From Promethearchaeota archaeon (GTDB lineage Archaea; Asgardarchaeota; Lokiarchaeia; Sigynarchaeales; SOKP01), in assembly GCA_016839655.1 (NCBI GenBank), contig JAEOTW010000123.1:7170-71169 (forward strand): 64,000 nt of DNA, in the 5' to 3' direction. The translations under genes were made by a program, and so were the position numbers. Numbering within the stretch: the first letter of the stretch is position 1; the number at the start of each line of letters is the position of its first letter. The notes beneath the pieces are model-generated. The model searched no databases. It had not been told where the DNA came from and saw nothing but the letters and a program-made list of their open reading frames with translations. This document shows, one piece after another, positions 2,227-62,265 of this stretch.

Positions 2227-3534
2227 ATGACAAAAATATCCTTTTTAGGAAGTTGTAGAGAAATTGGTCGGTCAAGTATTCTAATTGAATCAAAAAGTGG
2301 ATCGAAATGCATATTAGATTATGGTATAGGATTCAATAGTGATAACAGATTACCCCTTGAACCAGACTTTTCCAACCTAAAATCAATTGCTCTGACTCAT
2401 AGTCATGTTGATCATTCAGGAGCACTACCATATATATATAAAAAAAGTAAAGTTCCATTCTATACAAATTCAATTTCTCTTGAAATTACTGAACTTTTAA
2501 TAAGAGACATGATAAAAATTTCTAAATATCCATATCCCTTTGGTTTCAGGGAATTAGACCATTTAAGACAAAATGCCTATTTCTTGAAGAACGGTACTCG
2601 CCAAAGGATAGATGACAATTTTTATATGACATTTTATGATGCTGGTCATATTCCCGGAAGTGTTTCAATTTTAATTGAAGTTGACAATAAGCGGATACTT
2701 TATTCTGGAGATATTAATACTCAAAACACAAATTTAATCACTCCTGCAAATTATAAGGAGGTACCCGAATTAGATGTGTTAATAATCGAATCTACGTATG
2801 CTTTAAGAGAACACCCCCCTAGAAAAACACTTGAGGAAAAATTTATAGAGAAAGTTATTGATATAACTGAGAATGGCGGGAAAGTATTAATTCCTGCTTT
2901 TGGAGTAGCACGTTCACAAGAAGCGCTTTTAATTTTAGAAAAATACGATTATACTGGTAATATTTTTATTGATGGATTAGCTAGAAAAGTATCAAATATC
3001 TATTTAAAATATCCTGAGTATATTAAAGACATAAAATCTTTTAAGAAAATGGTAAAAAAGGCTGAATTCATTTCAAGGAAAAAGGATAGGGTTCATGTGA
3101 AAAAATCAAAGGGTGTTATTATATCCCCCTCTGGTATGCTTAAAGGGGGTGCGGCTATAGACTATATAGAAACAATTTTAAATGATCCATTATCTGCAAT
3201 CTATTTGGTAGGATACCAGGTCGAAGGAAGTCCTGGAAGGGGTTTATTAGATAATGGAATTTTTGAATTTAAAGAATCAGAGAGGAAAAAAAATATTTTT
3301 AATAGTCTTCAAATCGAAGCGAAATGCGATTACGATTATTTTGATTTTTCAAGCCATGCCGATAGTATGCATCTTTTTGAATATGTAGATAGTTTAAAAT
3401 TTCGTAATAAGAATCAAAAAAATGTATTTTGTATTCATGGTGACAATAAATCAACTACTACTTTTGCAAAGGAATTGGTGAAAAAAGGCTATAATTCAGT
3501 TGCTCCGGAAATTGGAGAAATTTATAAAATATAG
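2227..3534 (+). CDS. Beta-CASP metallo-beta-lactamase ribonuclease, aCPSF2-like
   Basis: A 435-residue protein of the CPSF73/RNase J superfamily. The zinc motif H58-x-H60-x-D62-H63 (LTHSHVDHSGALP), the later AGHIPGS (motif 3), YSGDIN (motif 4), the ESTYALREHP beta-CASP entry segment, the SPSGMLKGG segment and a C-terminal FSSHAD motif are all visible, so both metal ions should be bound. There are no N-terminal KH domains, which separates it from the archaeal aCPSF1 termination factor and places it nearer aCPSF2. Members act as endo- or 5'-3' exoribonucleases in the cytoplasm. It is flanked downstream by a convergent DHH nuclease gene 24 bases away. Confidence 0.85.
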   Translation: MTKISFLGSCREIGRSSILIESKSGSKCILDYGIGFNSDNRLPLEPDFSNLKSIALTHSHVDHSGALPYIYKKSKVPFYTNSISLEITELLIRDMIKISKYPYPFGFRELDHLRQNAYFLKNGTRQRIDDNFYMTFYDAGHIPGSVSILIEVDNKRILYSGDINTQNTNLITPANYKEVPELDVLIIESTYALREHPPRKTLEEKFIEKVIDITENGGKVLIPAFGVARSQEALLILEKYDYTGNIFIDGLARKVSNIYLKYPEYIKDIKSFKKMVKKAEFISRKKDRVHVKKSKGVIISPSGMLKGGAAIDYIETILNDPLSAIYLVGYQVEGSPGRGLLDNGIFEFKESERKKNIFNSLQIEAKCDYDYFDFSSHADSMHLFEYVDSLKFRNKNQKNVFCIHGDNKSTTTFAKELVKKGYNSVAPEIGEIYKI

Positions 3535-59513: not shown

Positions 59514-60710
<1,197 letters not shown>

Positions 60711-61794: not shown

Positions 61795-62070
61795 GTGTTA
61801 TTAATAGCCCCTAAAGGATTATATGCAGCAAGAAAATTACAAATTAATCGAAAAAAATTTCGATGGTCCAAAACTAAATATAAAAGGAGAAAACTTCAAT
61901 TAAAGAAGAAAGTAGACCCATTGGAAGGAGCTTGTCAAGCTCTCGGAATCGTTCTTCAGAAAGTTGGTAGAGAAAGTAAACAACCGAACTCAGCTATTCG
62001 GAAATGCGTTCGTGTTCAACTAAAGAAAAATGGAAAAGGAGTTACTGCGTTCTTACCTGGAGTGTTCTAA
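61795..62070 (+). CDS. rpsL: Ribosomal protein uS12, N-terminal part (interrupted gene)
   Basis: [19 protein letters not shown], the [19 protein letters not shown] decoding loop and VTAFLPG match archaeal uS12 up to residue 85, then the frame reads V-F-stop (TAA 62068-62070). The remainder of uS12 follows in the same frame at 62092-62265. GTG 61795 belongs to a GTAGGTG ribosome-binding site; ATA 61804, six bases after GGTG, gives the family N-terminus [11 protein letters not shown] and is the likelier start. Removing 62062-62091 leaves a 143-residue protein, normal for the family. uS12 shapes the decoding centre of the small subunit. Confidence 0.9.
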
Positions 62071-62091
62071 ATATTTCTTTTAGTACACAGA
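62062..62091 (+). other. 30-base in-frame interruption of uS12 with a stop codon
   Basis: Runs from just after the PG codons (CCT GGA) to just before AAT GGA (NG of the conserved PGNGALNF). Length is exactly ten codons including TAA, so the flanks remain in frame. GTGT at its start and ACAC (62085-62088) near its end can pair to form a short hairpin. The canonical bulge-helix-bulge intron motif could not be made by eye at any of the three possible boundaries. Confidence 0.85.
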
Positions 62092-62265
62092 AATGGAGCG
62101 CTTAACTTCATAGAAGAGCATGATAGAGTGATCGTCGAAGGAATTGGAGGCGCCAAAGGACGCTCCATAGGCGATCTCCCTGGAGTTCGTTATAAAGTAG
62201 TCAAAGTTAATGGTGTGAGCCTTGACGCTCTTTTAGCTGGAAAGAAAGAGAAACCACTCCGGTAA
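62071..62265 (+). CDS. rpsL: Ribosomal protein uS12, C-terminal part
   Basis: 64 codons from the first codon after TAA to TAA 62263-62265. [38 protein letters not shown] (the second decoding loop) and the final KKEKPLR complete uS12. If translated separately the likeliest start is ATA 62071, directly after the stop and six bases after AGTG inside GGAGTG 62059-62064, which is SD-like. If the 30 bases are spliced or bypassed, this is simply the C-terminus of the single protein. Confidence 0.85.

Follow-up and report, generated by a model that had tools for sequence, protein, structure and literature searches.

The rps12 interruption and its context

The stretch of DNA analysed here, 64,000 nt from a Promethearchaeota archaeon (the window), carries a gene for ribosomal protein uS12, rps12, that is broken by a stop codon. 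As the first-pass annotation had reported, 30 in-frame bases with a UAA (TAA at 62068–62070 on the plus strand) interrupt the frame 61807–62265: the residues VF*IFLLVHR stand between VTAFLPG and NGALNF, and the rest of the frame is uS12. Pfam profile PF00164 covers both halves end to end (profile positions 2–54 and 52–108 of 110), and the gene exceeds intact uS12 homologues by exactly 30 nt. Its neighbours are open archaeal genes, namely rpoA1, rpoA2, those of an L7Ae-family protein and a NusA-like KH protein, and rps7. By uS7, the closest relatives of the window are Lokiarchaeia, with 91 % identity to CP070831. The comparisons below support, with a probability of about 90 % as judged from sequence, the reading that the insert is a mini-intron of the bulge-helix-bulge (BHB) type and belongs to a multi-gene Lokiarchaeial family.

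Recurrence at the same rps12 site

Loci of relatives were retrieved via uS7, and both rps12 halves were present in 73 of the 80 obtained. The gene was contiguous in 72 of these 73, and a single locus (L018) had an excess, again of exactly 30 nt. This locus belongs to genome G001, which is the metagenome-assembled genome (MAG) 9R3_44, has a coverage of 266 in its contig name and contains a single rps12 match. The comparison of rps12 (rpsL) across Lokiarchaeia that the first-pass annotation had proposed yielded an insert of the same length, different in sequence from that of the window and at the identical base position. Class-wide, uS12 was matched in 76 of 83 genomes and a stop or extra length was seen only in G001; a phylum-wide uS12 search that matched 209 of 227 genomes gave no further stop among the matches listed, and a uS12 scan of viral contigs gave no match.

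At least eight proteins (P0001, P0002, P0004, P0005, P0006, P0007, P0009 and P0116) were found to leave uS12 right after Pro-Gly in a search with the uS12 N-terminus (best 120 of 179). The next residue is V or E in all eight, as expected if the first base of a GAY codon is exonic (phase 1), with T or A as the first base of the intron. Insert lengths inferred by hand from the frames were 30 nt for P0001, 31 nt for P0002 and 29 nt for both P0007 and P0116. No additional Lokiarchaea-like departure was seen among the best 120 of 467 matches in an alignment-based uS12 search. The exon 1 protein of P0005 is identical over 84 residues to that of the uninterrupted loci L028 and L031, which indicates that presence of the intron varies among close relatives. 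P0046, P0155 and P0128 also depart near Pro-Gly; they are less window-like (62–69 %), resemble frameshifts or deletions of other archaea, and were not counted.

Two further departures were observed in this set. Towards its C-terminal end P0001 continues after GDLPG with V-NGDKIYLPA and then stops, perhaps through a second intron at another CCTGGAG heptamer, perhaps through a contig flaw. P0003 already parts from uS12 at GKSIT|TQISTS, a few residues upstream of the common site, which may reflect an additional site or a sequencing error.

A predicted BHB motif at the proposed exon–intron junctions

A plain RNA fold of the interrupted genes gave an exon–exon helix, GCGUUCU/GGAGCGC, enclosing a hairpin formed by the insert; in the window its 5′ side (GCGTTCT) lies at 62047–62053 and its 3′ side (GGAGCGC) at 62095–62101, on the plus strand like all features described here. 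Both interrupted genes pair strongly across their exons, with −12.3 and −11.0 kcal/mol, and 9 of 55 uninterrupted Lokiarchaeial rps12 genes reach −6.5. The hairpin was described by a BHB geometry with a 4-bp central helix (H) between exon 1 and the 3′ end of the intron, an inner stem (h′) of 9 bp, a 5′ bulge of two exon bases and one intron base, and a 3′ bulge of two intron bases and one exon base.

Among the offsets tried, the best cut in both genomes was CCTGGAG^...^ATGG. In the window it formed 10 of 13 pairs (next best cut, 8) and in G001 13 of 13 (next best cut, 7). At 60,000 random G001 positions, with the best of three cuts taken, at least 10 pairs occurred in 2.2 % and 13 pairs in 0.003 %, and by this random-position null P at the shared cut was 0.022 for the window and 3e-5 for G001 rps12. 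The cut places exon 1 at 61795–62062 (ending CCT GGA G, from a provisional GTG start codon at 61795; assigned by PF00164, frame and cut geometry), the putative intron, TGTTCTAAATATTTCTTTTAGTACACAGAA, at 62063–62092, and exon 2 at 62093–62265 (starting AT GGA GCG), so that the split codon G^AT encodes Asp. Asp occupies this position in 55 of 55 uninterrupted Lokiarchaeial loci and in 10 of 18 other archaea, the remainder having Asn (six), Ser (one) and Thr (one). The first-pass annotation had the correct length for the segment to be deleted, but its limits, 62062–62091, would give Asn at the junction and are better moved one base to the right.

Within this geometry the exon side of H is CTGG (62057–62060) and its intron side ACAG (62087–62090); three of the four positions pair, and the fourth is a G-A mismatch. 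The geometry puts the 5′ bulge, AG^T, at 62061–62063 with the predicted cut after 62062, and the 3′ bulge, AA^A, at 62091–62093 with the predicted cut after 62092. The arms of h′, GTTCTAAAT at 62064–62072 and TTTTAGTAC at 62078–62086, form seven of nine pairs around the pentaloop ATTTC (62073–62077). Together with that of the acyl-CoA dehydrogenase gene (acd) described below, the motif of the window is the weakest of nine, and may be regarded as a slightly relaxed BHB. The minimum-energy fold lies in another register than the BHB, at −16.1 versus −13.6 kcal/mol in the window; for G001 rps12 the values were −18.9 and −17.8 kcal/mol.

Inserts in other genes and genomes

The 1,103 ORFs of a 1.2-Mb portion of G002, a Lokiarchaeial MAG in a single contig whose rps12 is uninterrupted, were compared with the window and with 1.446 Mb of G001, and 556 of them had a match. 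Clear interruptions in G001 were located in rps12 (30 nt), acd (30 nt), the gene of a CCG-domain iron-sulfur protein (30 nt), fwdA (31 nt) and rpoA1 (65 nt), and in the window rps12 was the only gene flagged. With a filter of eight identities on each side, this forward run kept six inserts (two of them, in contigs C14 and C31, uncounted) and two splits (fwdA and rpoA1). In the reverse comparison, 1,410 ORFs from G001 and the window were run against G002, 79 loci and the window. Of these ORFs 723 had a match, and no in-frame stop insert was obtained under the same filter, which indicates that the method alone does not generate such inserts; one split was read as a domain fusion. Insert calls of low identity, in C14 (36 %), C31 (29 %), C3, C7 and, within fused Hdr-like genes, C23, were left uncounted.

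Homology scans showed inserts of 30–65 nt in rpoA1, fwdA, acd and the CCG protein gene, several at shared sites, and the genomes with inserts outside rps12 were G001, G029, G030, G031, G041, G048 and G057. Across the class, 83 genomes were searched for each of rpoA1, fwdA and the CCG protein, and extra length with stops was flagged among the matches listed. G041 and G001 share the insertion site in the CCG protein gene, where the G041 insert is of 30 nt (12/13 pairs), and fwdA of G057 has one at a site other than that of G001 (12/13 pairs). In rpoA1, the site GHFGH|IELARP carries inserts of 65 nt in G001, 50 nt in G029, 30 nt in G030 (13/13 pairs) and 30 nt in G031 (13/13), and the site TYDEDG|LPIPSG carries inserts of 30 nt in G048 (12/13) and 31 nt in G031 (8/13), so rpoA1 of G031 is interrupted twice. 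The rpoA1 inserts of 65, 50 and 31 nt fit the rigid geometry poorly or have other cuts. In acd a second cut also scores 10 and would give Lys, not Glu. For the 31-nt insert of G001 fwdA, which has the loop GCTTA, joining at the BHB cut yields Glu, and the G002 residue is Lys.

The 65-nt rpoA1 insert (G001:C27) and the 50-nt one (L276) share their end and a 3′ hairpin, CCTC/CTTC-ATTTC-GAGG/GAAG, with one compensatory change; a nested or extended intron is possible. Stops unaccompanied by extra length were not taken as introns, namely TGA in the CCG protein and TAA at the C-terminal end of rpoA1. A single in-frame TGA with no excess of about 30 nt was observed in the CCG protein of G036:C351, G050:C39 and G053:C11, possibly encoding selenocysteine. 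Near query residue 456–467, rpoA1 is split in G030:C88, G075:C31 and G006:C111 by about 1.3–1.5 kb that keeps a single frame open, which looks like an intein.

A blind scan for BHB-like hairpins joining reading frames returned at least 393 candidates in 375 kb, and is useless alone, so homology is needed. The motif itself (at least 12/13 pairs and an NNNTC loop) matched 23 times in the 1.446 Mb of G001 and 36 times in 1.2 Mb of G002, which shows that it is not specific; four and one of these matches, respectively, join stop-broken frames, two of the four in G001 being the rps12 and CCG protein inserts already identified. A G001 gene that we take from its sequence to encode a thiolase had appeared with low identity in the forward comparison and was found again in the motif scan with 13/13 pairs. 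On the minus strand of G002 at 878024 (joined 1.3–2.5 Mb piece), a 13/13 hairpin with the loop TTTTC interrupts a zinc-ribbon-bearing gene that is presumably LURP-one-like. Both candidates look real, and the second suggests that one or more such introns exist in G002 as well. A third candidate is a 12/13 BHB hairpin with the loop TTTTC at 3279 on the minus strand of G001:C4, which joins two frames of a zinc-ribbon-like protein. Having been selected on their score, these three did not enter the covariation count.

Covariation and shared geometry

The nine 30-nt inserts that the homology comparisons had revealed (window rps12; G001 rps12, CCG and acd; G041 CCG; G057 fwdA; G030, G031 and G048 rpoA1) were superposed gap-free. 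Standard pairs were present at 108 of the 117 expected positions, with 52 pair types. When the 3′ letters were shuffled (5,000 rounds), 55.3 +/- 4.8 pairs (maximum 74) and 35 pair types (maximum 46) were obtained, the cut of each insert being a best-fitting one compatible with the protein, a choice not repeated in the shuffle, whereas the random-position null allows three cuts. For acd, of two cuts tied at 10 the one giving the reference Glu was used. The two rps12 inserts were the source of the geometry, and 85 of 91 pairs were retained when they were left out. Between introns at the same site, double compensatory changes that keep pairing numbered five in rps12, five in CCG and four in rpoA1. 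The loop is NNNTC in eight of the nine (ATTTC, AGTTC, AGCTC, AATTC, ATATC, TTTTC, AGATC and ATTTC) and AATAA in G030; the frequency of the dinucleotide TC in G001 is 0.058.

At the level of the family, two bulges surround a 4-bp H and the predicted cut falls after the second bulge base. Excision would restore frame and residue, G002 residues being regained at the other 30-nt sites but not at G001 fwdA (31 nt).

Splicing against other explanations

The first-pass annotation had left a tiny intron, translational bypassing and a split into two chains unranked; the comparative data favour the intron, and specifically one of the archaeal BHB type, over the other two. Programmed translational bypassing, in which the ribosome would skip the insert during translation, is very unlikely, even though the inserts are short hairpins with stops and, in the available text of PMC5009743, 81 short inserts are bypassed in yeast mitochondria, several of them in cases without matched codons. 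The GGA codons pointed out at first pass do flank the rps12 gap, one directly before it and another one codon after it, but bypassing from GGA to GGA would remove Asp-Gly of PGDG. GGA precedes the rpoA1 TYDEDG|L gap too, but not the gaps of CCG, acd, fwdA and rpoA1 GHFGH|I; no GGA pair occurs at the inserts of other genes and, by eye, no matched codon pair of any kind lies beside the gap in the CCG, acd, fwdA and rpoA1 inserts. The junction residues were compared with 55 loci as reference for uS12 and with G002 alone for the CCG protein and fwdA. A 30-nt hop in the window gives Val or Asn against the uniform Asp of Lokiarchaeial loci, and the whole codons beside the gap give I or L in G001 CCG and I or K in G041 CCG, not M, and G or K in G057 fwdA, not E. 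The rejoined split codon encodes the reference residue at each of these four sites (D in window rps12, M in G001 and G041 CCG, E in G057 fwdA). Since a hopping ribosome resumes on whole codons only, and only the rejoined codon fits at four sites, these sites count against bypassing. A whole resume codon with the conserved residue, absent at those four sites, is present at G001 fwdA, where AAA encodes the Lys of the reference; the rest of the 30-nt sites are uninformative on this point. Pairing, with compensatory changes, also extends into exon 1 as helix H, which EndA substrates require and bypassing does not. To our knowledge, an exon–intron helix of this kind is no part of the bypassing mechanism in mitochondria of Magnusiomyces capitatus.

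Still less probable is translation of the unspliced mRNA, either by read-through into a uS12 with ten extra residues or as two chains. The reading frame is kept in the window and in G001, and the insert of P0001 is free of stops, as read-through would have it; yet the hand-inferred inserts of 29 and 31 nt in P0007, P0116 and P0002 shift the frame, and the rps12 insert adjoins the conserved PGDG loop. Comparable inserts in RNA polymerase, FwdA and acyl-CoA dehydrogenase count against this explanation as well, and a split into two chains, as considered at first pass, leaves the hairpin inserts of the same size in other genes of related genomes unexplained. Least probable is that assembly or sequencing produced the insert artificially, or that this copy is decaying. 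The compared genomes are metagenome-assembled where their titles are known, but an independent MAG with one rps12 match carries, at the corresponding position, a 30-nt insert of unrelated sequence, eight uS12 N-termini depart there, the inserts are structured and covary across several genes and genomes, and the reverse search against G002 and 79 loci gave no in-frame stop insert under the same filter; this agrees with the first-pass view that decay is implausible and that a homopolymer sequencing error does not account for 30 bases. Other intron classes fit poorly: none of the nine inserts is GT...AG as in spliceosomal introns (at the BHB cuts they start with T, A or G and end with AA, AG, TT or AT), and a group I or II intron is rejected by the length of 30 nt and by the lack of an Rfam match in the window at gathering scores.

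Splicing machinery in relatives

For the BHB-type intron, the end of exon 1 (CUGG), the start of the intron and its end would fold into a BHB hairpin closed by the exon–exon helix. Two cuts, one after 62062 and one after 62092, would then be made by the tRNA-splicing endonuclease, of which relatives have a catalytic and a non-catalytic EndA subunit. Ligation of the exons by RtcB would restore the Asp codon as G|AU and with it a normal uS12. Throughout the family the intron would consist of 1 nt, a 9-bp stem around a pentaloop (mostly NNNUC), the 4 nt of H′ and 2 nt. We infer this cutting and ligation of the mRNA, and the action of EndA and RtcB on it in the organism of the window.

Two paralogues of the endonuclease (EndA, PF01974) are encoded in each of the relatives G001, G002 and G003, and one RtcB (PF01139) in each of the same three. 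The G001 paralogue closest to PDB 3p1z/3ajv, which we take to be the Aeropyrum enzyme of the (alpha-beta)2 type, keeps the His (LEHSPFIVH; aligned with 3p1z, with Ala in 3ajv), and the other paralogue is without it. By their predicted proteins, the relatives would possess an alpha plus beta endonuclease able to cut a relaxed BHB, together with RtcB. Enzymes of the (alpha-beta)2 and epsilon2 types can efficiently remove relaxed-BHB introns, although one (alpha-beta)2 enzyme is narrower, according to the available text of PMC6379350. Intron-bearing tRNAs were predicted in G001 and G002 by intron-aware ARAGORN. In default mode, 1.45 Mb of G001 yielded two tRNAs, and neither 1.2 Mb of G002 nor 60 G001 loci yielded any; the intron-aware mode found six in G001 and four in G002. 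Introns at unusual positions may be present in many tRNA genes of Lokiarchaeia.

Comparison with known systems

In Lokiarchaeia, cbf5 itself looks uninterrupted: the matches of 80 of 83 genomes contained no stop in the DKCLD domain, which presumably does not cover the crenarchaeal cbf5 intron site, and among the matches listed the open frame was 326–423 aa long except in three (145, 217 and 251 aa). The crenarchaeal introns in cbf5 mRNA are the nearest parallel. In the available text of PMC2738675, which cites papers of 2002 and 2006 on them, they are 16–44 bp long, BHB-like and mostly unconventional, and are cleaved by hetero-oligomeric EndA; the cut follows the second bulge base and separates the first letter of the catalytic Asp codon from the second. 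They share with window rps12 the location in a protein gene and phase 1 in an Asp codon, although the match in phase and amino acid is, as far as can be told, a coincidence. As described there, the cbf5 introns occupy one site in one gene of Desulfurococcales and Sulfolobales, whereas the Lokiarchaeial inserts occur in several genes (rps12, rpoA1, fwdA, acd and CCG), are mostly of 30 nt and have an NNNUC pentaloop. Archaeal tRNA introns of the BHB type, 11–175 nt long in the same text, have the same geometry; the Lokiarchaeial inserts differ in lying in mRNA, in codon phases 0, 1 and 2.

The BHB intron of Haloferax HVO_1309 is likewise an mRNA substrate of EndA, but it lies in a 5′-UTR and not in coding sequence, and the available text of that report, from 2020, describes cbf5 as the sole other case of a BHB intron in archaeal mRNA (PMC7714728). 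Variants of rudivirus SIRV1 also have putative short introns in several protein genes; these are of 12 bp, viral and with putative splicing, and putative introns in other protein genes are cited as unconfirmed at the time (PMC2738675, available text). The mitochondria of Magnusiomyces capitatus resemble the present case in having short inserts at many sites and in many genes, but those inserts are skipped in translation and not cut from RNA (PMC5009743, available text). No report of an Asgard mRNA BHB intron was found in a literature search whose coverage was thin for subscription papers and did not extend to bioRxiv preprints. Given the cbf5 and Haloferax cases, and with no Asgard case found, the window insert is filed as an mRNA intron of the BHB type that is new in its host group and in its membership of a multi-gene, mostly 30-nt, pentaloop family.

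Possible spread and implications

The geometry of the inserts is uniform, the pentaloop is mostly ANNUC, and inserts present in one genome are absent in close relatives. Some sites have been hit repeatedly, namely the rps12 Asp codon, GHFGH|I and EDG|L in rpoA1, and C|MGC in CCG. A tentative reading of these features is a spreading family of mini-introns of about 30 nt with a common ancestor or insertion machinery, mobile via reverse splicing and independent of group II introns and the spliceosome. Reverse splicing may return excised introns to RNA, at exon sites able to pair with H′, and cDNA may then carry them back into DNA. If this reading is true, an Asgard lineage has its own mobile, protein-spliced mRNA introns.

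If the inserts are introns, some genes annotated as broken or truncated in the intensively studied Asgard genomes would be whole after splicing, and intron gain and loss can be observed at fixed sites among close relatives. If confirmed, the machinery that splices tRNAs would also splice mRNAs in a group that stands near the origin of eukaryotes.
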